Positions 6,307-37,483 of a stretch of 37,592 nucleotides of DNA are shown in pieces (within the stretch, counting starts at the first letter, position 1; each line of letters starts with the position of its first letter). Origin of the DNA: Nitrospirae bacterium JdFR-81 (GTDB lineage: Bacteria; Nitrospirota; Thermodesulfovibrionia; UBA6902); contig MTOQ01000078.1 in NCBI GenBank assembly GCA_002011735.1, forward strand, positions 1-37,592, read 5' to 3'. Below the pieces are notes generated by a model, which was not told the origin of the DNA, did no database searches, and saw only the letters and a list, made by a program, of their open reading frames with translations. Both the position numbers and the translations under genes were made by a program.

Positions 6307-7338
6307 ATGAACGACACATTCCTGAAGGCCTGTCGTGGAGAGTCTGTACCTTATACCCCTGTCTGGCTCATGCGACAGGCAGGCAGGTATCTGAGACAGT
6401 ATCAGAAGATAAGGAAGAAGGTCGATTTCCTCACCCTGTGTAAGACCCCTGAACTGGCTGCCGAGGTCACCATTCAGCCTATAGAGGCCCTGGGTGTGGA
6501 CGCAGCCATCCTCTTCTCGGATATACTCATCCCTGTAGAGGCAATGGGGATGGCACTAAGGTTCTATGAGAAGAGGGGGCCTGTCTTTAAAAATCCCGTG
6601 CGGAGAAGACAGGATGTGGAACGCCTCCTTATCCCGGAGCCAGAGGAGGCCCTCTCCTTTGTGATGGACACTATAAGACTCCTGAGAAGAGAACTAAAGG
6701 TGCCGCTTATAGGATTCTCAGGGGCGCCTTTTACGCTGGCCACCTATATGATAGAGGGTGGGACCTCTAAAAACTTTCTGCTCACAAAGAGGATGATCTT
6801 TGAGTCTCCAGAGGTGTATAGATCCCTTATGGAGAAGATTACAGAGACCGTTACCAGGTATCTGAAGGCCCAGATCTCTGCTGGTGCACAGGCTGTACAG
6901 CTCTTTGACACATGGGCAGGTGTGCTCTCGCCACATGACTACAGGGAATACGCCCTGCCATATGTAAAGTCTGTTATAGGGGCAATAAAATCCATTGCCT
7001 CTGGTGTGCCTGTCATATATTTCGTTGGACAGTGTGCAGGTCTGCTCGAAGAGATCAGGGGATGTGGGGCCGATGTTATAGGGGTTGACTGGAGAATCAA
7101 CCTCGATGATGCGATAAAAAGACTTGGGAGGAGGTTTGCAGTCCAGGGAAACCTTGATCCCTGCGCCCTCTTCCTGCCACCAGCGGAGATAGAAGGGCGG
7201 ATCAGGGACATCTTAAGGAGGGCCTCTTCTTCGAGGGGGCATATATTCAATCTGGGACACGGCGTACTGCCAGAGACACCTGTGGAGAATGTGGTTGCAA
7301 TGGTGGAGATGGTCCACAGACTGAGCAGCAGGACCTGA
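6307..7338 (+). CDS. hemE: Uroporphyrinogen decarboxylase
   Basis: PVWLMRQAGRYLRQYQKIR; ILFSDILIPVEAMG; GFSGAPFTLATYMIEG; VQGNLDP; FNLGHGVLPETP. Confidence 0.97.
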   Translation: MNDTFLKACRGESVPYTPVWLMRQAGRYLRQYQKIRKKVDFLTLCKTPELAAEVTIQPIEALGVDAAILFSDILIPVEAMGMALRFYEKRGPVFKNPVRRRQDVERLLIPEPEEALSFVMDTIRLLRRELKVPLIGFSGAPFTLATYMIEGGTSKNFLLTKRMIFESPEVYRSLMEKITETVTRYLKAQISAGAQAVQLFDTWAGVLSPHDYREYALPYVKSVIGAIKSIASGVPVIYFVGQCAGLLEEIRGCGADVIGVDWRINLDDAIKRLGRRFAVQGNLDPCALFLPPAEIEGRIRDILRRASSSRGHIFNLGHGVLPETPVENVVAMVEMVHRLSSRT

Positions 7339-24183: not shown

Positions 24184-24842
24184 CCAGTATCCTCCTTCTC
24201 GATCCTCGTATCCTTCAGGTGTATCACCCTTCTGCCGGTGCCAAGGAACAGATCCCTGTGGTGGGTTGCTATAAGGACGGTCGTCCCGCGTGCATTTATC
24301 TCTTTAAAGAGTTTCATGACCGTGCGGGTATTCTCAGGGTCAAGGTTTCCTGTGGGCTCATCAGCCAGCAGGACCGAAGGCTTTGACACTATTGCCCTTG
24401 CAAGCACGATCCTCTGCTGTTCTCCTCCTGAGAGGTGAGGGGGGTAATTGTGTGCCTTGTCCCTCAGGCCAACATCATCAAGCACCTCCATAACATGCTC
24501 CCTGATCTCCTGTGGATGCATACCATGGATCCTCAGGGCAAGGGCTATGTTGTCAAATACCGTCTTATTGGGCAGGAGCCTGAAGTCCTGGAAGACTATC
24601 CCAAGGTTACGCCTCAGGAACGGGATGGTCCTCTGCTTCAACTTCTCCACGTCCCAGCCTGCCACAAATATATGGCCCTTGTCAGGCCTTTCAGCCCTGT
24701 AGATAAGCCTCAGGAGGGTCGTCTTTCCGGCACCACTGGGGCCTGTTATGAATGCGAGCTCTCCCTTCTCGATAGTAAATGATATATCCCTGAGGACGAC
24801 CTGGTCATCGTAGGATTTCGTGACATTTGAGAGCTGTATCAT
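24180..24842 (-). CDS. ftsE: Cell division ATP-binding protein FtsE
   Basis: GPSGAGKTTLLRLIYRAERPDKG; FQDFRLLPNKTVFDNIA; LSGGEQQRIVLARAIV; LLADEPTGNLD. Confidence 0.95.
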   Translation of the reverse strand: MIQLSNVTKSYDDQVVLRDISFTIEKGELAFITGPSGAGKTTLLRLIYRAERPDKGHIFVAGWDVEKLKQRTIPFLRRNLGIVFQDFRLLPNKTVFDNIALALRIHGMHPQEIREHVMEVLDDVGLRDKAHNYPPHLSGGEQQRIVLARAIVSKPSVLLADEPTGNLDPENTRTVMKLFKEINARGTTVLIATHHRDLFLGTGRRVIHLKDTRIEKEDTG

Positions 24843-25774
24843 GATTTGATCATCCCTTTTACAGTCTCGACCATGCTCTCCACCGTGAGGCCGTGGAACC
24901 TGAGCAGTTCCTCAGCAGGGCCTGAGCATCCAAAGGAGTCCTGTATGCCCATCCGTCTGATAGGCACGGGGTGTCTCTCTGAGAGGAATTCACACACCGC
25001 ACTGCCAAGACCACCTATTACCGAGTGCTCCTCTGCAGTAACTATCGCCTTTGCACTCCTTGCAGCAGTCAGCAGGACCTCTTCATCAAGGGGTTTTATG
25101 GTAGACATATTGATGAGACCGACATCAAGGCCATCTGCTGAGAGTATCTCGATGGCCCTTTTGGCGATCTCCACCATGATGCCCGTAGCGATGATGTTTA
25201 CATCACTACCCATGTGGAAGACAAATGCCCTGCCTATACTGAATTTATAGTCATCGGGCATGACGGTGGGCACCTTTGCCCTGCCAAGCCTCACATACAC
25301 CGGCCCCTTGTGGTCCACGATCGTCCTTATTACGGCCTTTGTCTCAATTGCATCAGCAGGCACTATCACGGTCATATTGGGCAGTGCCCTCATTAATGCA
25401 ATATCCTCGAGTGCCTGGTGTGATGCACCATCAGGCCCCACGGTTATGCCTCCATGAGAGGCCACGATCTTTACATTTGTGTGTGAATAGCAGACGGTCT
25501 GTCTTATCTGATCCCAGGCCCTTCCTGTTGCGAATACAGCAAAGGTTGAGGCGAACGGTATCTTGCCTGTAAGTGCGAGGCCTGCCGCGGTGCCTATCAT
25601 GTCCTGTTCAGCCACACCCATATTGAAAAACCTGTCAGGAAACTCTTTTGCAAACATGTTTGTCTTTGTGGATGCAGAGAGGTCTGCATCAAGCACCACT
25701 ATCTCAGGCCTCTCCCTGCCAAGCTCAACGAGCACCTCACCATACGCCTGCCTTGTCGCCTTATTCATCACCAA
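24839..25774 (-). CDS. Transketolase, C-terminal subunit
   Basis: ATRQAYGEVLVELG...VLDADLSASTKT...FNMGVAEQDMIGTAAGLAL...GGITVGPDGASHQALEDIALMRALPNMTV. Confidence 0.93.
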   Translation of the reverse strand: MVMNKATRQAYGEVLVELGRERPEIVVLDADLSASTKTNMFAKEFPDRFFNMGVAEQDMIGTAAGLALTGKIPFASTFAVFATGRAWDQIRQTVCYSHTNVKIVASHGGITVGPDGASHQALEDIALMRALPNMTVIVPADAIETKAVIRTIVDHKGPVYVRLGRAKVPTVMPDDYKFSIGRAFVFHMGSDVNIIATGIMVEIAKRAIEILSADGLDVGLINMSTIKPLDEEVLLTAARSAKAIVTAEEHSVIGGLGSAVCEFLSERHPVPIRRMGIQDSFGCSGPAEELLRFHGLTVESMVETVKGMIKS

Positions 25775-26615
25775 GCTCCTTTAACGCCCTCTCCAGTTCC
25801 TCTGGTTTTGGTGAGACCCCATGGTATTCGACCCTGTCTTCGAATATAGACACTCCCTTACCCTTTGTGGTACGGGCGATTATAACCGTTGGTTTGCCCT
25901 TTGTCCTCTCCGCCTCATCAAGGGCATCCAGTATCTCCTGCATATTGTGTCCGTCTATCCCTATCACATGCCATCCAAAGGATAGCCATTTATCCATTAC
26001 AGGCTCTATATTCATCACATCCTTTACACGCCCGTCTATCTGGAGGCCATTGTTGTCCACAACCGCACAGAGGTTGTCCAGCCTATAGTGTGACGCCGTC
26101 ATTGCCGCCTCCCAGACCTGACCCTCCTGTATCTCTCCATCTCCAAGGATGCAATAGACCCTTGCAGGGTTCTTATCGAGCCTCAGCCCAAGCGCCATAC
26201 CATTTGCCACCGAGAGGCCCTGACCGAGAGAGCCTGTTGAGACCTCAACCCCTGGAAGGCTCTTACAACATGGGTGACCCTGGAGTGGTGATTCGATCTG
26301 CCTGAGATTATCAAGCACATCAGGCGGGAAGTATCCTGCCTCGGCCATTATCGCATACAGCAGGGGGGCAGCGTGTCCCTTTGAGAGTATGAACCTGTCC
26401 CTTCCCTCCCAGGAGGGGTCCTCTGGCTTATAATCCATCTTTGAGAAGTATATGGCCACCGCCACGTCCGTGGCAGACAGGGAGCCACCTGTATGGCCAG
26501 AGCCTGCCTTTGTAAGCATCTTGAGGATCTTTACCCTCACCCTCCTTGCGATCTCCTCAAGTATCCTTACATCCCTGATCTTCTTCTTTTCACCTGTCGC
26601 GATGTCCATATCCAT
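25761..26615 (-). CDS. Transketolase, N-terminal subunit (TPP-binding)
   Basis: AGSGHTGGSLSATDVAVAIYF; DRFILSKGHAAPLLYA; STGSLGQGLSVANGMAL; CILGDGEIQEGQVWEAAM. Confidence 0.94.
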   Translation of the reverse strand: MDMDIATGEKKKIRDVRILEEIARRVRVKILKMLTKAGSGHTGGSLSATDVAVAIYFSKMDYKPEDPSWEGRDRFILSKGHAAPLLYAIMAEAGYFPPDVLDNLRQIESPLQGHPCCKSLPGVEVSTGSLGQGLSVANGMALGLRLDKNPARVYCILGDGEIQEGQVWEAAMTASHYRLDNLCAVVDNNGLQIDGRVKDVMNIEPVMDKWLSFGWHVIGIDGHNMQEILDALDEAERTKGKPTVIIARTTKGKGVSIFEDRVEYHGVSPKPEELERALKELGDE

Positions 26616-26763: not shown

Positions 26764-27954
26764 TTATGGCAGGTTGGTCATGCCCCTGCTTATCTTCCAG
26801 AGGTAATATTTCTCAAACAACTGCTTTGCCCACTTGTATCTTTTGCCTGCCTTTATCTCTGCCTTTTTGCGTGGTGGTATGACTGGGAAGGCCTCCATCA
26901 GCGCCGCTGTATCACCCATGTCCATTATACATATCGCACCTACAGGCTCGGTCTCAGGGATGGGTCTGCCGTTTATCTCAGAGGCTATGACCCTGGCCGC
27001 ATCCTTTGCCATCCTCTCCGTCATATACCCCGTCTTCGGGACACCCGTGGGGATGGGTGTGGGCTCAGGTGGTGCCATGGCTATGGCAACCCCCACTGAG
27101 AAGATGTTCTTATATTCCTTGTGTCTGTAGTGCTGGTCAACAGGGATAAAGCCCTTGGGATTGCTGATGTCCGAGACGGCCTTGACCCCGCTCATGGGAG
27201 GTGCAAACATGGCGAGTTTGAACGGCAGTCTGGTTCCATCCTTCAGCCTCACCTCATCAGGTGCGAATTCCTCAACCGCCTGGTTGGCCATAACCTTTAT
27301 CTCCCTGTCTGCAAACTCGTCCTCCATCATCCTCCTTGATGTCCTGAGCCCACCGATTCCAAAATGCCCTATATATGGCTCTGATGTAACGAATGTTATC
27401 TGGACCTTGTGACGGATGCCGTGTCTTCTCAATTCAGTATCAATCTCAAACACATACTCATACGCAGGGCCAAAGCAACTCACACCCTGGACCGCACCAA
27501 CCACCACGGGCCCTGGCTCCTTGAGGAACCTCAACCACGCATCCCTCGCCCTTAATGCAAGGTCAAGCTCGAATATGCATTCAGTGTACCCGTTTATCGG
27601 GCCGAGTCCAGGGACAGCCGAGAATACCAGCGAGGGGCCTGTTGCCACCACAAGGTAGTCATAGGGTATCTGCTGTGATGCTGTTATAACCTTTGATGAA
27701 CCAGCATCCACGCCCTTTGCCTCTTCATGGATGAATCTTATATCCTTTGGCCTGAGTATCTTTTCAAGCGGAAGGGTGATATCCTCGGGCCTCCTCCATC
27801 CCATTGACAACCATGGAAGCGATGGGATAAAGACAAACTTATCCTGATTACATATGAGGGTGATATCTGCCTTGTTACCCAGGAGCCTCTTCAGTTCAAA
27901 GGCAGATGTCAGACCCCCAAAGGAGCCACCTATGATAACGATCCTTGTCATCAT
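26764..27954 (-). CDS. FAD-dependent sulfide:quinone oxidoreductase-like protein
   Basis: RIVIIGGSFGGLTSAFEL; PYDYLVVATGP; VSCFGPAYEYVFEID; IFSVGVAIAMAPPEPTPIPTGVPKTGYMTE. Confidence 0.82.
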   Translation of the reverse strand: MMTRIVIIGGSFGGLTSAFELKRLLGNKADITLICNQDKFVFIPSLPWLSMGWRRPEDITLPLEKILRPKDIRFIHEEAKGVDAGSSKVITASQQIPYDYLVVATGPSLVFSAVPGLGPINGYTECIFELDLALRARDAWLRFLKEPGPVVVGAVQGVSCFGPAYEYVFEIDTELRRHGIRHKVQITFVTSEPYIGHFGIGGLRTSRRMMEDEFADREIKVMANQAVEEFAPDEVRLKDGTRLPFKLAMFAPPMSGVKAVSDISNPKGFIPVDQHYRHKEYKNIFSVGVAIAMAPPEPTPIPTGVPKTGYMTERMAKDAARVIASEINGRPIPETEPVGAICIMDMGDTAALMEAFPVIPPRKKAEIKAGKRYKWAKQLFEKYYLWKISRGMTNLP

Positions 27955-27961
27955 GCCCCCC

Positions 27962-28225
27962 TTAAAATATGCCTATTACCTTGTCAGCCCCGACCATGAG
28001 GTCTATAAGCTGGTCATAGTCAACGGGTCTTCCCCTGATCTCTGATTCGCTGATCCCCCGCAGTTTCATGTCATCAACCATTACATAGATGTTCTCATTC
28101 TTGAGATCCCTTGAGGCATACACCGCATCCTGCAGGAGACACACATCCGCCCCCATATCCATGGCGAGCCTGTATGATGTCCTGAATTCCTTTGTATCAG
28201 GTGCACTTGATATGAGGAATAACAT
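27962..28225 (-). CDS. Small DsrE-fold protein, DsrH/TusB-like
   Basis: MLFLISSAPDTKEFRTSYRLAMDMGADVCLLQDAVYASR...GRPVDYDQLIDLMVGADKVIGIF; position in the operon. Confidence 0.7.
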   Translation of the reverse strand: MLFLISSAPDTKEFRTSYRLAMDMGADVCLLQDAVYASRDLKNENIYVMVDDMKLRGISESEIRGRPVDYDQLIDLMVGADKVIGIF

Positions 28226-28238
28226 ACTACCACCTCCC

Positions 28239-28589
28239 TTAAAATATCATTACCGCCTGGGCCTCCTTTACTGCCTGTCTGAGCCTCTCTCCGTCATCTA
28301 TCCTGACGCCTTCAACAAGGTCGTCCTCGGTGAGATTGTATTCTTCAAGTGACTGTCTGTGTGCATAGATCTCCATCTCCTCGGACAGGAGTTCAAGGCT
28401 CTCGGCAAGTCCTGTAAAACCCGTATCACCCGCGTCCTGCCCCTTCTTTGCGGTGAATACCCCGCTGTCGATCAGATAGAGCGTTGCCCTATAATCAGAG
28501 CCAGAGGCCCCACCGGCGTGTCTTACCGCCTCTGCGGCGTTGATTACTCCATAAGGTGGTCTTCTCAATATGACAAGGAGATTATCCAT
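28239..28589 (-). CDS. DsrE-fold protein, DsrF/TusC-like
   Basis: LLVILRRPPYGVINAAEAVRHAGGASGSDYRATLYLIDSGVFTAKKGQ...AVKEAQAVMIF. Confidence 0.72.
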   Translation of the reverse strand: MDNLLVILRRPPYGVINAAEAVRHAGGASGSDYRATLYLIDSGVFTAKKGQDAGDTGFTGLAESLELLSEEMEIYAHRQSLEEYNLTEDDLVEGVRIDDGERLRQAVKEAQAVMIF

Positions 28590-28633: not shown

Positions 28634-28990
28634 TTACATCCCTAAATTGATGAAGATGTCAGACTGCTTCATGAGTGCGAAGAGCCCTTTCAGTGTGCCT
28701 TTCTGTGGCCCGTCAATATAACTGTCTTCCGTTATACAACGGAAGTTCACACAGCCCCCTCAGAGGTCAACCTTCAGGCCCTTCTCCATGAGGGAGGTGA
28801 ATCCATCAGCAGCATGAGGCAGGCCCTTTCCCTTCTGGCCCTTGAGGAAGTTATACACGCCATCGGCCGAAGCAACGAGGTGGGTCTCAAGGCCCTTCCT
28901 GAGTGCAGCCTCGGCAATCCTCATGGCGGTATAGGTGTTCTCAAAAGAGTAGGGCGAGGTGTTGAGGAAGAGGGTCAGTCTTTTACTCAT
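28634..28990 (-). CDS. DsrE-family protein with in-frame UGA at 28760-28762, predicted selenoprotein
   Basis: MSKRLTLFLNTSPYSFENTYTAMRIAEAALRKGLETHLVASADGVYNFLKGQKGKGLPHAADGFTSLMEKGLKVDL-[UGA]-GGCVNFRCITEDSYIDGPQKGTLKGLFALMKQSDIFINLGM*. The same frame continues 41 sense codons to TAA. GGAGG ribosome-binding site before ATG 28990/28993. Confidence 0.82.
28722..28754 (-). promoter_or_regulatory. Candidate bacterial SECIS element downstream of the UGA
   Basis: CUGU-gugaa-CUUCCGUU-GUAU-AACGGAAG-ACAG: perfect 8-bp apical stem, tetraloop starting with G, 22 nt between UGA and loop, and a 4-bp lower stem. Confidence 0.75.
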
Positions 28991-29331
28991 CATCTCCTCC
29001 TTTCTCCAGGGTATGTGCCCTTCTTTGTTACAGGGCAGCATTCAGGCCCTGGTAGTTCTCTGTCATACTCCTTCCTGAGTATCTCAAGGAGGTCAAGGAC
29101 AAAGGGGTTTTTGAGAAAGTAGCACCTGAGCCGTCCATCAATGAAGTAGTCTATAATACCGGCCCTCCTCAGGAGTCCAAGATGCTGGGAGATGTTTGGC
29201 TGACTTATCTCAAGGAAGTCCTCAAGATCACTGACACACTTGACCCCCTTTGAAAGCTCATCAAGGATGGCGACCCTTACAGGATGGGCAACTATCCTGA
29301 GTATCTCGACCTTACCCTTTAATTCATTCAT
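28990..29331 (-). CDS. ArsR-family winged-helix regulator
   Basis: MNELKGKVEILRIVAHPVRVAILDELSKGVKCVSDLEDFLEISQPNISQHLGLLRRAGIIDYFIDGRLRCYFL; the track extends it to a TTG at 29361; ATGA overlap with the DsrE gene. Confidence 0.9.
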   Translation of the reverse strand: MNELKGKVEILRIVAHPVRVAILDELSKGVKCVSDLEDFLEISQPNISQHLGLLRRAGIIDYFIDGRLRCYFLKNPFVLDLLEILRKEYDRELPGPECCPVTKKGTYPGERRR

Positions 29332-29339
29332 ATATTCAA

Positions 29340-29368
29340 ATATTATTATATTTTTATCCAATTGTCAA
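29340..29368 (-). promoter_or_regulatory. Putative sigma70-type promoter of the arsR-dsr operon
   Basis: Minus strand TTGACA - 17 nt - TAATAT, just upstream of the arsR ATG. Confidence 0.5.
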
Positions 29369-29449
29369 GGAGGATAATCTGTGGTCTTCCCTGAAGCCCT
29401 GGGGATCTCTTCCCTTGATCCTCTTGTAAGGACTGTGTTACTTTTATCC

Positions 29450-32400
29450 ATGTCAAACTTCATCACAAATAGCCACACCAGGAGTCTTAAAAAGAGGCTT
29501 CAGGAACTCCTTTTAAAGAGCAGGGAGCTGAAGTTTCTGGTTGGATTCTTTTACTTCTCCGGCATCAGGGAGCTGTATAACGCCCTCAGAGAGAATCCTG
29601 CTGTTACACTGAAGGTACTCGTTGGCCTGAATGTGGACAGAACCATGCATGGGCTCATAGAGTACGGAGGGGATCGGCATTATCTATCAGACGACGAGAG
29701 GGTCTATAACTTTTTCAGGTCAATAAGAAATTCGATCAATACCGAACACTTCGACAACAGGGAGTTCTATGAACAGGTCAGGTTCTTTCTCCAGCTTATT
29801 AGAGACGGCAGACTGATTATCAGAAAGACCTATGAGCCAAACCATGCAAAACTCTACATATTCAAATTAGAACAGACCCAGGTCGGCAGGAATGCGCTCT
29901 TCATTACAGGCAGCAGCAATCTCACCCATGCAGGCCTGACAAAACAGCAGGAGTTCAATGTTGAGATCAGCGACTATGGCCTTGAAGAGGCCGAGGAGTA
30001 TTTTGACTCTCTGTGGAAAGAGGCTGTTTATATTACAGAGGTTGATGAGACCAGAAAAAGGCTCATAGAGCTTATTGAGAGAGAGACCCTCATAAAGGAG
30101 ATCACCCCCTTTGAAGCATACTGTCTTGTCCTTAAGACCTATCTTGATACCTTTGCCGGTATGGAACTCAGTCAGAGAGTGGAACAGGTTCTGTTGGAAA
30201 ACAACTACAGGGTCTATAACTATCAGCTTGATGCCATAAGACAGGCACGCTCCATAATAGAGCAGTGTGGTGGTGTTATCATTGCCGATGTGGTCGGGCT
30301 CGGAAAGACGGTCATTGCCTGTGCAGTGGCCTTTGAGCTTAAAAAGAGGGGGATCGTCATTGCACCCCCTGGGCTTATCGGCGATAAGACAGCCTCAGAG
30401 GGCTGGAAGAAGTATCTTGAAGAGTTCTATCTCTCGAAATTTGGCTGGGAGGCATTCTCACTTGGTGACCTTGAGAAGGTTGCAGACTATGTCTCAAGAG
30501 CAAGGGATATCGAGGTGGTCATTGTTGATGAGGCCCACAGGTTCAGAAATCAGGACACCAGGGATTATGAGCTCCTCAAAAACATCTGCAGGGGCAGAAA
30601 CGTTATGCTCCTCACGGCCACACCCTTTAACAACAGACCGGCCGATATATTTTCTCTTTTGAAGCTATTCATTACCCCCAAGAAATCAACCATAACCCTT
30701 ACCGATAACCTTGAGGCAAAGTTCGTTGAGTTCAGGGGCACCTTTGACAGGCTTTCTTATATAAGGAGATATGCAAACTCGTCAGATCCGAAGAAGCGAC
30801 AGAGGGCGCTTGCCTACTATAATGCACTCTTTGGTGAAGGGACAATAGACCTCAGAAAGGTAAAGGCCCGTGCCCACTACCTTGCAGGACAGATAAAGCA
30901 CGTGATCGAGCCTGTTACCATCAGGCGCAACAGGCTCGATCTCCAGAAGAACCCCCTTTATAAGGATGAAGTAAGGGAACTCTCAAAGGTGGAAGACCCC
31001 ATGGAATGGTTCTATGAGCTCACCGAGGAGCAGTCAGGGTTCTATGACAGGATAATAAACGAGTACTTTGCCATGCCAGAAGAGGGGGGCAGATTTAAAG
31101 GAGCCATATACATGCCATTTGCCTATGAGGTGGGCAGGGTGGATGACCTTGGAGAGGATGAGCAGTTTCAGTATATCTCACAGTTTAACCTCTACGACTT
31201 CATGAGGAGACTCCTTGTAAAGCGGTTCGAGAGCTCCTTTGGTGCATTCAGACAGAGCCTCAAGAACTTCAGGAAGATTACACAGGATGTCCTCACCTTC
31301 ATAGAGAAGACCGGCAGATACATCCTTGATAGGGACCTCCTGGAGAAGATATACGACAAAGACCCCGAGGTAATAGAACAAGAGCTTGCTGGATATGCTG
31401 AAAAAATCAGAAAGAACGAGTATCCCAAGAATCACAAGATCTATGAAATAAAAAAGTTTAAAAGACAGAAGGAATTCATAGAGGACATAAACTCTGATTT
31501 AGAGCTCTTTGAAGACATCCTTAAGGAACTGGAAGGATTGAATCTTGTTGATGATGATCCAAAGGTTGAATCCCTGATTAAAAATCTCAAAACAGATATC
31601 CTCAATAAATCGAAAGATAACGAACCAAAGAGAAAGGCCGTTATCTTTTCTGAATATATAGACACGGTAGAGTATCTTGAACCAATACTACAGAAGGCGT
31701 TCAACAACAGGGTCCTTGTTGTAAGGGGAGACCTCACAAAGAGAAAGACCGATGATATCTACGCAAACTTCGATGCCTCCCATCCTGAAGAAAGGCAACG
31801 GGACGATTATGATATCCTTCTTACCACCGACAAGATATCCGAAGGATTCAACCTTAATCGTGCAGGAGTAGTGGTTAACTATGACATCCCCTGGAACCCC
31901 GTGCGTGTCATCCAGAGGGTGGGAAGGATCAACCGTATCAGCAAGAAGGTATTTGATAGCCTCTATATAGTAAACTTCTTCCCCACAGAGAAGGGTGCCG
32001 ATCTTGTGAGGTCTCGTGAGATAGCCTCAAACAAGATGTTTCTCATACACAATGCCCTGGGAGAGGACTCAAAGATCTTTGACATAGATGAAGAGCCGAC
32101 TCCATCAGGTTTATACCAGAGGATTCAGCAGAATCCGGACTACCTGGAGTCAGAGAGCTTTTATACAAGGGTGCTGAAGGAGTTCGAAGAGATAAAGGCA
32201 TCCCATCCCTCATTGATAGAATCCCTTGAGAATTTCCCACCACGGGTCAAGGTTGCAAAACCATCTGGCAGGGATGAACTCTTTGTGGTTATCAAGAAGG
32301 GCAGGCTGTTTGTCCATCATAAAGACTATTCCGAGAACGATATAGACACAGTGTCACTTGAAGATGTGTATGAAAGGATCAGGGCAGACGCCGAAACAGA

Positions 32401-32788
32401 GGCACTCCCTCTCAGCAACAGATTCTGGGACGAATATGAGGCTGTAAAAAACTTCAGAGAGAGGCACACCTCTCACAGGGTTGAGCACAGCATAGAGCAG
32501 AAGGCTGTCAACAATCTGAAGACAATACTGAAGATAAGTGATATGGATGCACTCACCCCTTATAAACCATTTATCAGGATCCTCCTTGAGGACATCCTTG
32601 ACTACGGAACCCTATCCAACTATACCCTCCGGAGGCTTGCCAATCTTAATATACAGGATCAGGACAGATTGGTCGGCGAAATAAATACCCTCAGGAGACA
32701 GCTTGGGGAAGACTATCTGGAGAGGGAAAGAGGGAGAATGAAGGAGATTGCAAAAGAGATAATTATTGCCATAGAGAACAGAAAGTGA
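29450..32788 (+). CDS. PLD-like nuclease domain fused to SNF2/DEAH helicase
   Basis: MSNFITNSHTRSLKKRLQELL; PLD motif NHAKLYIF...GSSNLTHAGL; Walker A DVVGLGKTV; VDEAHRF; LLTATPFNN; TDKISEGFNLNRA...IPWNPVRVIQRVGRINR; the track start is 29381. Confidence 0.9.
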   Translation: MSNFITNSHTRSLKKRLQELLLKSRELKFLVGFFYFSGIRELYNALRENPAVTLKVLVGLNVDRTMHGLIEYGGDRHYLSDDERVYNFFRSIRNSINTEHFDNREFYEQVRFFLQLIRDGRLIIRKTYEPNHAKLYIFKLEQTQVGRNALFITGSSNLTHAGLTKQQEFNVEISDYGLEEAEEYFDSLWKEAVYITEVDETRKRLIELIERETLIKEITPFEAYCLVLKTYLDTFAGMELSQRVEQVLLENNYRVYNYQLDAIRQARSIIEQCGGVIIADVVGLGKTVIACAVAFELKKRGIVIAPPGLIGDKTASEGWKKYLEEFYLSKFGWEAFSLGDLEKVADYVSRARDIEVVIVDEAHRFRNQDTRDYELLKNICRGRNVMLLTATPFNNRPADIFSLLKLFITPKKSTITLTDNLEAKFVEFRGTFDRLSYIRRYANSSDPKKRQRALAYYNALFGEGTIDLRKVKARAHYLAGQIKHVIEPVTIRRNRLDLQKNPLYKDEVRELSKVEDPMEWFYELTEEQSGFYDRIINEYFAMPEEGGRFKGAIYMPFAYEVGRVDDLGEDEQFQYISQFNLYDFMRRLLVKRFESSFGAFRQSLKNFRKITQDVLTFIEKTGRYILDRDLLEKIYDKDPEVIEQELAGYAEKIRKNEYPKNHKIYEIKKFKRQKEFIEDINSDLELFEDILKELEGLNLVDDDPKVESLIKNLKTDILNKSKDNEPKRKAVIFSEYIDTVEYLEPILQKAFNNRVLVVRGDLTKRKTDDIYANFDASHPEERQRDDYDILLTTDKISEGFNLNRAGVVVNYDIPWNPVRVIQRVGRINRISKKVFDSLYIVNFFPTEKGADLVRSREIASNKMFLIHNALGEDSKIFDIDEEPTPSGLYQRIQQNPDYLESESFYTRVLKEFEEIKASHPSLIESLENFPPRVKVAKPSGRDELFVVIKKGRLFVHHKDYSENDIDTVSLEDVYERIRADAETEALPLSNRFWDEYEAVKNFRERHTSHRVEHSIEQKAVNNLKTILKISDMDALTPYKPFIRILLEDILDYGTLSNYTLRRLANLNIQDQDRLVGEINTLRRQLGEDYLERERGRMKEIAKEIIIAIENRK

Positions 32789-32857
32789 GTTTATCAAGTT
32801 GTGATATAATCTATAAAAAGTTTTCAAATCTATTGTGTTGGTTGAGAAAATGAAGAT

Positions 32858-32941
32858 ATGAAGACTCTTAAAGGAATAAGGGAAACTTTAGAAAGACGCA
32901 GTGATTATATAAAAGAGAGACTCGGCCTCAAAGAGATATGA
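32858..32941 (+). CDS. 27-aa peptide resembling the N-terminal helix of an MNT nucleotidyltransferase
   Basis: MKTLKGIRETLERRSDYIKERLGLKEI*; its TGA overlaps the mntA ATG (ATGA). Confidence 0.4.
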   Translation: MKTLKGIRETLERRSDYIKERLGLKEI

Positions 32942-33342
32942 AGATTGATTTCAGCAGGATAACATTAAACCACGAAAAGCTCCGCCGTTCAGGTGTAGGG
33001 GCATTGATTGTTTTTGGCTCATATGTGGAAGGCACCGCTCACCCTGGCAGTGATATAGATGTGGGGGTGGTATTTGAAGACCAGAACCCACTTAAGACTG
33101 ATCCTGTAGAAGTTTATGGTCTTCTTCATGAAGAACTTTCTGAGAAGATAAGCGAGAATATTGATATTGTATATCTACACGAAACACCCCTGAGCCTTCA
33201 ATTTAACGCTGTAACAGAGGGAGTTCCTATATTTTATACCTCAGAAGAATTTTATTATGATTATAAAGAGCGGATAATTAAGTTGTATTTAGACTTCAGG
33301 TTTTTTGAGAATATATTTGATGAGGCAGTGCTTGAAGGATGA
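32938..33342 (+). CDS. mntA: MNT-domain nucleotidyltransferase antitoxin (MntA-like)
   Basis: GSYVEGTAHPGSDID matches GSX10DXD; paired with a HEPN gene. Confidence 0.9.
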   Translation: MKIDFSRITLNHEKLRRSGVGALIVFGSYVEGTAHPGSDIDVGVVFEDQNPLKTDPVEVYGLLHEELSEKISENIDIVYLHETPLSLQFNAVTEGVPIFYTSEEFYYDYKERIIKLYLDFRFFENIFDEAVLEG

Positions 33343-33794
33343 CTGACAGAAAACCTATTAACCTCCAGAAGATCAGAAATATTCTTGCGGATATAGAGAG
33401 TAGCGTAGAAGAACTTAAAGCCATTACATCCTGTAGCCTTGATGATTTCAAGAAAGATAAAAGAAACTATGGCCTGGCAGAACACTATTTAAGAAGGGCA
33501 CTTGAGGGAGTTCTTACCATAGGAAGCCATATTCTGTCGCGCCTGCCCGTAAAGACAAAGGATTATAGACAGATTATCCTGAGTCTTGGTGAACATGGGA
33601 TAGTACCAGTGGATTTTGCCGAGAAAAACAAAAAACTTGCCAGTTACAGAAACAGGCTTGTCCATCTTTACTGGGAGGTCTCTGTAGAAGAACTATATCA
33701 GGTAATCAAACAGCATATAGATGATCTTTCCCTGTTCTGTTTTTATTATAAAGAAGTCATTAAAAATCCTCAGAAATTTGGGCTTGATGTTTAG
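33339..33794 (+). CDS. hepT: HEPN-domain toxin (HepT-like, DUF86)
   Basis: RNRLVHLYWEV matches RX4HXY; ATGA overlap with mntA. Confidence 0.9.
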   Translation: MTDRKPINLQKIRNILADIESSVEELKAITSCSLDDFKKDKRNYGLAEHYLRRALEGVLTIGSHILSRLPVKTKDYRQIILSLGEHGIVPVDFAEKNKKLASYRNRLVHLYWEVSVEELYQVIKQHIDDLSLFCFYYKEVIKNPQKFGLDV

Positions 33795-33799
33795 CAGGC

Positions 33800-36700
33800 A
33801 TGGCAAAGGAGACACTACAGGATATAATCCACAACTTCTCACCTGAAAAATTCATCCACTTCTTCAGACTGAAGAGCCGCTCCTTCCGCCCCTATTCCGA
33901 GCCAGCCCCTGAGTACAACGACGACCACTTTACCAATGCCCTTTTCCTTGGCAAGATTCCATTTAATGAAACAGAGAGACTGGTTATATACTCTTTCAGG
34001 ACAAATAAGGACATTAAAGAACGCTCTGGCAAAAAGGCACAGTATGAAAAGGGCAAGAGGATCCTGAAAGACACCTTCACCGATGCAGGGATATTTATTT
34101 TTTATGATCAAAATAGTAATTTCAGATTCTCCCTGATTACAGCAATATACAGCGGTCCCAAACGCCAGTTCAGCCACTTCAAGCGCTACACCTACTTTGT
34201 AAGCCCTGATCTCACAAACAAGACCTTTCTTCAGCAGATAGGCGAGGGTGATTTTTCATCCATAGAGAAGATTAAAGAGGCTTTCTCCGTTGAAAAAGTA
34301 ACAAAGGAATTTTATCAGGAAATTGCAAACTGGTATTTCTGGGCCCTTAAGCATGTCAGATTCCCGCCTCAGGCAGAGGCGGAACCAAACGGCAGAAACA
34401 TTGCCGTCATCAGGCTTATCACCCGAATTATCTTCATATGGTTTATGAAGCAGAAGGGCATAGTGCCTGATTATCTCTTTGACAGAGATAAGGCACTGCG
34501 TGAAATTCTTAAAGACCTCTCTAATAACGAGAGCACCTATTATAAGGCAATTCTTCAGAACCTGTTTTTTGCAACTCTGAACACCCCACAAAAAGAACGA
34601 GGATTCAGACGACCAGAGAGATACTCCAGAGGCTATAACCCTGATTTCACAAACCAGTATGTCTATCGCTACCAGAGCATGTTCAAAGAACCGGACAGAC
34701 TGAAAGAGTACTTTGGTAAAATCCCCTTCTTAAATGGTGGTCTCTTTGAATGTCTTGATGATGGCAGGAAAGATATCTATATAGATGGATTCACTGAAAG
34801 GTCTAAAAAGTATCAACCAGTTGTGCCAAACTTTTTGTTCTTTTCAGATGAGACAACCGTTGACCTGAGTAAGGACTATGGTGAAGCAAAATATAGAAAG
34901 GCCGGAGTTAGAGGACTTATAAATATCCTCAAATCCTACAACTTCACCATTGACGAGAACACCCCTGTAGATGAAGAGGTTGCCCTTGACCCTGAACTCC
35001 TTGGTAAGGTCTTTGAGAATCTCCTTGCCAGTTATAACCCTGAGACCGCTACCACAGCAAGAAAGGCAACCGGCAGTTACTACACTCCCAGAGAAGTGGT
35101 TGACTACATGGTTGAAGAGTCCCTGAAGGAATATTTTGTAACAACTGTCCCGGGGATTGACAGGAAAAGACTGGATATCCTTTTTTCCTATGAAAGTGAT
35201 GAGAATCCATTCAATGATAAAGAGACTGATAAACTTATCACTGCCATACATCAGCTCAAGATAATTGACCCTGCTGTTGGCTCTGGTGCATTCCCCATGG
35301 GAATCTTACACAGACTTGTTCATATTCTGCACAAACTCGATCCCCATAATCTGAAATGGAAGGAAGAACAGATAAAGGCAGTTGAGCAGAATGTGAAAGA
35401 CCCCTCTCTCAGGCATGAGTTAATACAGAAGATCGAGGAAAGTTTTGCCTTAAATGAACTTGATTATGGAAGAAAGCTATACCTTATTCAGAATTGTCTT
35501 TATGGAGTGGACATCCAGCCCATTGCCATACAGATTGCAAAATTGAGATTTTTCATTTCTCTTCTGGTTGATGTAACAGTGGATAGAACCAAGAAAAACT
35601 TTGGCATAGAACCTCTTCCGAATCTTGAGACAAAGTTCGTTGCCGGGAATACATTGATTGGGCTAAATAACATGATAAGTATGTTGCCTCGGAAACTGGA
35701 AAGAATAAACCAGTTTAGAGACTCTTTATTTAGTCTCAGGCAAGAATACTTTTCTACATGGGACAATGAAAAGAAAAAAGAGATAAAGGAACAAGACAAA
35801 GAACTCCGTGAAACTATGCAAGAAATTATTAAGGATTACATTGAAAAGATTAATAGAAAAATAATTCCCCTGAAAGAAGAATTAGAGGCTGTTCCCAAAG
35901 AAAGAGAAATAGTTACAAGACAGGAAAAAGCCCTTTTTGAAACAATAACCGTCATGGTTGACCTCAATGAATTGAAAAGACAGGGAATCCAGAACAAGAT
36001 AGACAAAATAAGAGCAGAAGTTTCATCGTATGAAAGATTGCTTGAAAGTTTTCAGAAAATCATTGAGTGGGATCCTTATGACACCGAACACCATGCCAAC
36101 TGGTTCGATCCTGAGTGGATGTTTGGGGTGAGAGAAGGTTTTGACATCGTAATAGGAAATCCGCCGTATGTGAGGCAGGAGAAGATAAAATCCCTCAAAC
36201 CAATGCTCAGGGCATCAGGTTACAAGACATTCACCTCCACCGCCGACCTCTACACATACTTTTACGAACAGGGTTACAGGTTGCTGAAAGAGGGAGGCAT
36301 CCTCTGCTTTATCTCAAGCAACAAGTGGATGAGGGCAAAGTATGGTGAGACACTTAGGGAATTCCTTAAGAAAAATACAAGGGTTATTACTATTATAGAC
36401 TTTGGTGGTTACTCTGTTTTTGAACAGACAGTGGACACGAATATTATCCTTTTTCAGAAGACAAAACCACAAAAAATCCACAGGGTGGGTTTTGTTAACA
36501 TAAGGAACAACACAGACGACCCTATAACACAAATAAAAGAGAACATCTCCTCAATACCCCAGCAGAAACTATCTATCAGTGCCTGGACACTTGCTGACGA
36601 AAGGGTCTTAAGACTCAAAGAGAAGATAGAGCGCACTGGCAGGCCGTTGAAGGAGTGGGATGTAAAGATATATTTTGGAATTAAGACGGGCTTTAACAGA

Positions 36701-37483
36701 GCCTTTATCATAGATACGCAAAAAAGGGAAGAAATACTGAGAAATTGCAAAAGTGAGAAGGAACGGAGACTCACAGAGCAGTTAATCAGACCAATTCTCA
36801 GAGGAAGAGACATAGGAAGATATTATTACAGATGGGCTGACCTCTGGCTGATAAAGATTGAGTCAGGCTGGACGGATAGGCATAGAAATGGTAAAAAACC
36901 AGAAGATTTTTTTAAATCCACTTTACCCTCAATCTATGAACACTTGATTTCTTTTGCTAATAAGAAGAGTAAAGGCAAAGGTTTGTTAAACCGAGACGAT
37001 CAGGGAGATTACTGGTGGGAGTTGAGAGATTGTGATTACTATAGTGAATTTGAGAAAGAAAAAATTATTTACCCTGACATTTCTGAGCGATTGACCTTTG
37101 CTTTTGATAGTAACAGATATTTTCTCAATAACACCTGCTATTTTATAACTTCAGGAAGTAAATATTTACTTGGAGTTTTAAATTCCTCATTAATGGACTT
37201 TTACTATAAACAGATTTCCTCTCAACTTGGAAATGAAGCTATACGAGCCTTTACTGTTTTTCTTGAACAACTCCCTATCCCACCCATCACCCCACAAAAC
37301 AAACCTATTGCTAAAAAGATAGAAGCCCTGGTTGAGGAGATTCTCTCAATCACTCAGGACAGCGGTTATCCCCAGAGTTCAGAAAAACAGACAATAGTAA
37401 AAGACCTTGAAAGAGAGATAGACAGGATGGTATATAAACTTTACGAACTTACGCCAGAGGAGATAGAGATTGTGGAAAAGTGA
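33800..37483 (+). CDS. Eco57I-class (type IIG-like) N6-adenine methylase/restriction protein
   Basis: ATGSYYTPREVVDYMVEE; IIDPAVGSGAFPMGILH (motif I); IVIGNPPYVRQEK (motif IV); C-terminal TaqI/Eco57I-like specificity region. Confidence 0.88.
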   Translation: MAKETLQDIIHNFSPEKFIHFFRLKSRSFRPYSEPAPEYNDDHFTNALFLGKIPFNETERLVIYSFRTNKDIKERSGKKAQYEKGKRILKDTFTDAGIFIFYDQNSNFRFSLITAIYSGPKRQFSHFKRYTYFVSPDLTNKTFLQQIGEGDFSSIEKIKEAFSVEKVTKEFYQEIANWYFWALKHVRFPPQAEAEPNGRNIAVIRLITRIIFIWFMKQKGIVPDYLFDRDKALREILKDLSNNESTYYKAILQNLFFATLNTPQKERGFRRPERYSRGYNPDFTNQYVYRYQSMFKEPDRLKEYFGKIPFLNGGLFECLDDGRKDIYIDGFTERSKKYQPVVPNFLFFSDETTVDLSKDYGEAKYRKAGVRGLINILKSYNFTIDENTPVDEEVALDPELLGKVFENLLASYNPETATTARKATGSYYTPREVVDYMVEESLKEYFVTTVPGIDRKRLDILFSYESDENPFNDKETDKLITAIHQLKIIDPAVGSGAFPMGILHRLVHILHKLDPHNLKWKEEQIKAVEQNVKDPSLRHELIQKIEESFALNELDYGRKLYLIQNCLYGVDIQPIAIQIAKLRFFISLLVDVTVDRTKKNFGIEPLPNLETKFVAGNTLIGLNNMISMLPRKLERINQFRDSLFSLRQEYFSTWDNEKKKEIKEQDKELRETMQEIIKDYIEKINRKIIPLKEELEAVPKEREIVTRQEKALFETITVMVDLNELKRQGIQNKIDKIRAEVSSYERLLESFQKIIEWDPYDTEHHANWFDPEWMFGVREGFDIVIGNPPYVRQEKIKSLKPMLRASGYKTFTSTADLYTYFYEQGYRLLKEGGILCFISSNKWMRAKYGETLREFLKKNTRVITIIDFGGYSVFEQTVDTNIILFQKTKPQKIHRVGFVNIRNNTDDPITQIKENISSIPQQKLSISAWTLADERVLRLKEKIERTGRPLKEWDVKIYFGIKTGFNRAFIIDTQKREEILRNCKSEKERRLTEQLIRPILRGRDIGRYYYRWADLWLIKIESGWTDRHRNGKKPEDFFKSTLPSIYEHLISFANKKSKGKGLLNRDDQGDYWWELRDCDYYSEFEKEKIIYPDISERLTFAFDSNRYFLNNTCYFITSGSKYLLGVLNSSLMDFYYKQISSQLGNEAIRAFTVFLEQLPIPPITPQNKPIAKKIEALVEEILSITQDSGYPQSSEKQTIVKDLEREIDRMVYKLYELTPEEIEIVEK

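Follow-up and report, generated by a model that had tools for sequence, protein, structure and literature searches.

An in-frame UGA that almost certainly encodes selenocysteine in a dsrE-like gene of a conserved Nitrospirota operon

The operon and its interrupted dsrE-like gene

The window analysed here is the whole 37,592-nt stretch of DNA from Nitrospirae bacterium JdFR-81. It contains an operon in which genes for an ArsR-type regulator, DsrE-like, DsrF-like and DsrH-like proteins and a sulfide:quinone oxidoreductase (SQR) follow one another in that order (Table 1). The dsrE-like gene lies on the minus strand, which the preliminary description had not stated, and begins at ATG 28993 or at the next ATG, with GGAGGAG upstream and an overlap with the arsR stop. 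A mechanical search for open reading frames ends it at position 28760, as had been described, and gene callers likewise stop at this UGA, so that routine annotation does truncate the gene in the manner foreseen. Translated over its full length with TGA as U, the gene reads MMSKRLTLFLNTSPYSFENTYTAMRIAEAALRKGLETHLVASADGVYNFLKGQKGKGLPHAADGFTSLMEKGLKVDL-U-GGC-VNFRCITEDSYIDGPQKGTLKGLFALMKQSDIFINLGM up to a TAA, and the 41 open codons reported beyond the TGA are indeed there. In the 119-residue readthrough product, U78 sits within VDL-UGGC-VNFRC. The proposed U-x-x-C motif stands; its cysteine had been placed two residues from the UGA and is in fact three residues away, U78 and C81 forming UGGC.

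Table 1. Operon features in the window, by position in the whole stretch
Feature	Position	Strand	Basis or details
ArsR/SmtB-family regulator, first operon gene	28990..29361	minus	Cys42, Cys80, Cys108, Cys109
Putative dsrE-like selenoprotein gene, 119 codons	28993..28637	minus	stop TAA 28636-28634
In-frame TGA, predicted Sec78 of UGGC motif	28762-28760	minus	comparison of homologous loci; alignment with YchN Cys
Bacterial SECIS-type hairpin	28726..28745	minus	fold energy, covariation
DsrF/TusC-like subunit	28239..28589	minus	Pfam PF02635
DsrH/TusB-like subunit	27962..28225	minus	Pfam PF04077, 1.9e-7
SQR	26764..27954	minus	Cys126, Cys160, Cys342

The readthrough product matches Pfam family PF02635 (DsrE) over profile positions 1-115 of 116 (E=1e-17; 64.8 bits against a cut-off of 22.7). 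The extension had been read as the DsrE C-terminus and this is borne out, since it completes the domain and is conserved across the phylum. The open frame past the TGA was itself rejected as evidence for readthrough: at 30 TGAs of the window the frame is open for 50 codons or more on the 5' side and for 30 or more on the 3' side, so openness is too frequent by chance, and the case rests on comparison instead. One other frame joined across a TGA, at 7336, combines two unrelated domains (URO-D and PAS) and was set aside as an ordinary gene boundary.

In the ArsR/SmtB-family regulator, comparison of 46 loci (five contigs being counted twice) finds each of Cys42, Cys80, Cys108 and Cys109, numbered from a TTG start, conserved in 45 or all 46. 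The DsrF/TusC-like protein, which is without cysteine in this copy, matches the NCBIfam model sulf_tusC_dsrF (3.3e-10) at 39.9 bits, below the equivalog cut-off of 94.15, and Allochromatium vinosum DsrF (2hy5_B) at 3.9e-9. The DsrH/TusB-like protein matches sulf_tusB_dsrH (5.2e-10) at 39.3 bits, again below the equivalog cut-off (49.2), and DsrH 2hy5_C weakly. Homologs of DsrE, DsrF and DsrH thus stand side by side, in a gene arrangement of the DsrEFH/TusBCD type. The last gene product aligns over nearly its full length with the SQR of Aquifex aeolicus (3hyv; E=2e-100), the alignment including GVSCFGPAYE and the C-terminal cysteine; Cys160 and Cys342 match residues in the SQRs of A. aeolicus and Acidithiobacillus ferrooxidans, and Cys126 and Cys160 are conserved in relatives. 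The best NCBIfam match of this enzyme is the type III selenoprotein SQR family (NF049943), which raised the possibility of a second selenoprotein. This was rejected, as the gene in this window has no in-frame TGA and its product scores far below the cut-off of that family (103.7 against 525 bits). The order arsR-dsrE-dsrF-dsrH-flavoprotein is retained in most relatives; in some close ones the downstream flavoprotein is divergent (24-35% identity) or none was found nearby.

Elsewhere in the window, the operon is adjoined on the plus strand (29381-37483) by a likely defence island with a PLD-type SNF2-like helicase (1135 aa), an MNT/HEPT toxin-antitoxin-like pair and a type IIG (Eco57I-like) restriction-methyltransferase of 1227 aa. 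On the minus strand, at 24839-26615, the N- and C-terminal parts of a transketolase are encoded by separate genes that overlap slightly.

The UGA codon, the SECIS hairpin and the selenocysteine machinery

In 68 of 296 sampled Nitrospirota genomes, a search detected close homologs that contain a single internal TGA (E <= about 1e-19); four close homologs contain none. One of the 68, L024, also shows a TAA; it was considered as a locus with a second stop and the idea was dropped, as this TAA only marks the natural gene end. Among the loci read base by base, UGA occupies the same codon in 58/62 and Cys in 4/62, with Cys81 present in all 62. Removal of five contigs that had been fetched twice leaves 57 distinct loci, 53 with TGA and four with Cys, and Cys81 is again found in every one. 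On a tree of these 57, Sec and Cys copies are separated with full support. Three of the four Cys copies read CGTC in the alignment, as does the fourth, which was read separately. The expectation that the UGA would align with a conserved cysteine is therefore confirmed by four natural homologs and by Escherichia coli YchN, and a genuine stop followed by a degraded frame, the pattern named beforehand as telling against readthrough, was found in none of the relatives compared.

The homologs include a second subgroup, at about 43-47% identity, in which the motif is UTGC and the middle segment is shortened; UGA and hairpin are present here too. Its members (L071-L081) lie in the same operon arrangement, and some genomes, such as G270, hold both subgroups. 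In another genome (G140), the gene L022 combines UTGC with an insertion of ~25 codons (GGCVNGQCSMEKDAEESTGGGSMEK) after the SECIS region, which adds a CxxxxC. Where the carrier organisms are named, they are Nitrospirae, Nitrospiraceae or Thermodesulfovibrionia, mostly as metagenome-assembled genomes, and all 57 distinct loci apparently come from Nitrospirota.

A search for a SECIS element had been proposed, and a covarying hairpin of this type lies directly downstream of the UGA. It consists of an 8-bp stem (CUUCCGUU/AACGGAAG) closed by the loop GUAU, with 22 nt between UGA and loop. The 45-nt stretch folds at -14.4 kcal/mol, a value equalled by none of 200 shuffles. The published bacterial model describes a loop of 3-9 nt on a stem of 4-16 bp, with G in the first two loop positions, a distance of 16-37 nt from the UGA and an MFE <= -7.5 kcal/mol (PMC13188914); the hairpin lies within all four constraints. 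Across 21 relatives, 96.6% of stem cells are paired, as against 48-60% for slid versions, and two stem pairs show compensatory changes from C-G to U-A. In one of these pairs, the third position of a codon, where the change is synonymous (CGC/CGT), covaries with the first position of the facing codon, and the protein sequence by itself does not account for this. The GU of the loop is invariant in the hairpin alignment. When the hairpin was looked for in the Cys homologs, it did not form.

The genome (2.05 Mb in 95 contigs, 96% complete) contains all four of the genes named in the preliminary description, selA, selB, selC (tRNA-Sec) and selD. The first two lie together with the tRNA-Sec (anticodon UCA) on a single contig, C16. 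The selD gene (L017, contig C61:7913-8827) has an in-frame TGA of its own and probably codes for a selenoprotein itself. Among the 67 other genomes that carry the UGA gene, selB scores above cut-off in 63; two of the four in which it does not are only 74-77% complete. UGA also terminates ordinary genes in the window, for example one transketolase half and FtsX, so the codon is not simply reassigned.

These observations bear directly on two other readings of the codon. If the UGA were a genuine stop, the gene would specify a truncated DsrE, be a pseudogene or reflect a sequencing or assembly error. Gene callers do terminate there, and open frames on both sides of a TGA often arise by chance in this window. 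Against this, the same codon is TGA in nearly all of the distinct loci, which come from many families, and it is followed both by a conserved frame and by the covarying hairpin. A genuine stop is accordingly highly improbable; pseudogene, assembly error and UGA reassignment in particular are ruled out by this conservation together with the use of UGA to end ordinary genes. It is also very improbable that Cys or Trp, as a standard amino acid, is inserted in place of selenocysteine through near-cognate or suppressor reading, since the Sec machinery is complete, the hairpin is confined to UGA copies while the exceptions carry Cys, and other genes of the window end at UGA in the usual way. From sequence comparison, we conclude that the dsrE-like gene almost certainly codes for a selenoprotein with Sec at UGA codon 78.

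Fold, active site and proposed function

The conserved operon and its likely role in persulfide transfer go beyond the preliminary description. The best match of the Sec-DsrE sequence among solved proteins is E. coli YchN (1jx7; E=1.1e-7), which carries CxxC at the UxxC position, its first Cys aligned with Sec78. In a structure model of modest confidence (pLDDT 72.6, lowest just after Sec), Sec78 lies at the end of the strand that precedes the active-site helix, and the top Foldseek matches of the model are DsrE/DsrF-like proteins, including chains of 2hy5 and 2d1p. Of A. vinosum DsrE, the sequence profile aligns only the N-terminal half and stops before the active site; by fold family and position, Sec78 plausibly corresponds to Cys78, the residue that carries sulfur in DsrE/TusD. 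In the A. vinosum DsrEFH complex, DsrE-Cys78 is the sole residue that binds sulfur, which is passed to DsrC, and TusD-Cys78 is likewise essential (PMC3397948).

Further sulfur genes are found in the same genome. The genes dsrA and dsrB are directly followed by a DsrD-like ORF that falls just below its cut-off (23.7 against 24.2 bits), and the dsrAB locus is, from its sequence, likely of the reductive type. A dissimilatory DsrC ends in GLPKPTGCV, with both C-terminal cysteines. YedE-type genes occur on contigs C13 and C4, the C4 copy adjoining a tusA-like ORF. A second DsrH-DsrE-DsrF-like set (L015, contig C19, 307-1386) includes a Cys-type CxxC DsrE (VCTCEACTLARG), and Sec and Cys versions of the protein thus coexist in one genome.

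Taken as a whole, these features are probably best explained by Sec-DsrE acting as the catalytic subunit of an SQR-fed, DsrEFH-like persulfide carrier. A role in sulfur transfer is suggested by the conserved arsR-dsrE-dsrF-dsrH-sqr order, by the identity of the SQR and by the part played by Cys78 in DsrE/TusD, and also by the presence of dsrA, dsrB, the DsrD-like ORF and dissimilatory DsrC in the genome. In such a scheme, SelB and tRNA-Sec would read UGA codon 78 as selenocysteine under the direction of the downstream SECIS hairpin. As the conserved operon implies, Sec-DsrE would then form a complex with the products of the next two genes, serving as its catalytic subunit, and would be co-expressed with SQR under the control of an ArsR-type thiol or persulfide sensor. 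SQR, the presumed donor, would oxidise sulfide to sulfane sulfur, which the selenolate of Sec78 could accept. Cys81 might resolve the intermediate as an Se-S bond or keep the sulfur mobile, and the sulfur may finally be handed to DsrC, TusA or another acceptor, or be released as sulfide.

The main rival to this sulfur-carrier reading is that the protein is a Sec-dependent thiol oxidoreductase or persulfide reductase, used in detoxification or signalling and not in delivery to DsrC or TusA. U78 and C81 would then cycle between the selenol-thiol and selenenylsulfide states, reducing persulfides. The invariant second cysteine favours such chemistry: UxxC with Cys81 is a classic redox pair, whereas a single Cys suffices in canonical DsrE/TusD, and the nearest solved relative, YchN, is itself a CxxC protein. 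The four invariant cysteines of ArsR, which suggest a response to sulfide or persulfide, would also suit a reductase. The conserved DsrF- and DsrH-like partner genes, however, point to a transferase complex of the DsrEFH/TusBCD type, and we consider a reductase rather unlikely.

Relation to known systems and significance

The dsrE(Sec) gene belongs to a selenoprotein family known since 2005. DsrE-like UxxC selenoproteins (PF02635) were reported from the Sargasso Sea in that year (PMC1088965), from Desulfovibrio vulgaris in 2006 (PMC1794560) and from the GOS data in 2008 (PMC2398784), and the earlier statement that such proteins appear in metagenomic surveys is correct. The protein described here shares with them the Pfam family, Sec in UxxC (UGGC here, UTGC in the second subgroup) and a bacterial SECIS just downstream, a likeness drawn from published descriptions that give domain and motif. 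A 2026 review lists the family within a group whose functions it describes as largely uncharacterised (PMC13188914). Our literature search for selenocysteine in a DsrEFH operon found no paper that links the two in this way.

As in DsrEFH type I of A. vinosum and TusBCD of E. coli, three small genes of the DsrE, DsrF/TusC and DsrH/TusB kinds are adjacent. Here, by contrast, Sec would replace Cys, a second Cys stands three residues on, DsrF is devoid of cysteine, the partner proteins fall below the NCBIfam equivalog cut-offs and the genes are linked to arsR and sqr. Another parallel is offered by DsrEFH type II of the YTD cluster, whose subtype 1 is mostly from Nitrospirota (PMC13293266, PMC13047784) and which is likewise a DsrEFH-like transferase in organisms with reductive-type dsrAB; its active residue, a single conserved Cys (Cys67), stands at the equivalent position. 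Type II is, however, defined on Cys proteins in synteny with yeeE and tusA; here the active residue would be Sec, and neither yeeE/yedE nor tusA was found next to the present operon.

Whether the whole picture holds seems to us evenly balanced. In it, Nitrospirota that have a dsrABD-like locus would possess a DsrEFH dependent on selenium, in which Sec transfers sulfur, fed by SQR in a thiol-sensor operon. This DsrEFH would operate beside the Cys version on contig C19 of the same genome and be overlooked by protein surveys since gene callers cut at the UGA. This last point has practical consequences. A 2026 survey of protein sequences, made with HMMs at a bit score > 80, takes DsrEFH to mark a capacity for sulfur oxidation in sulfate reducers and reports that 99.3% of type II sequences possess the active Cys (PMC13293266). 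Since standard annotation ends Sec-DsrE immediately ahead of the active residue, the gene of these Nitrospirota probably escapes surveys that search proteins for DsrEFH. If the proposed role is true, selenium chemistry would take part in a sulfane-sulfur relay, and the operon gives a functionally blank family of DsrE-like selenoproteins a context in which its function can be tested.
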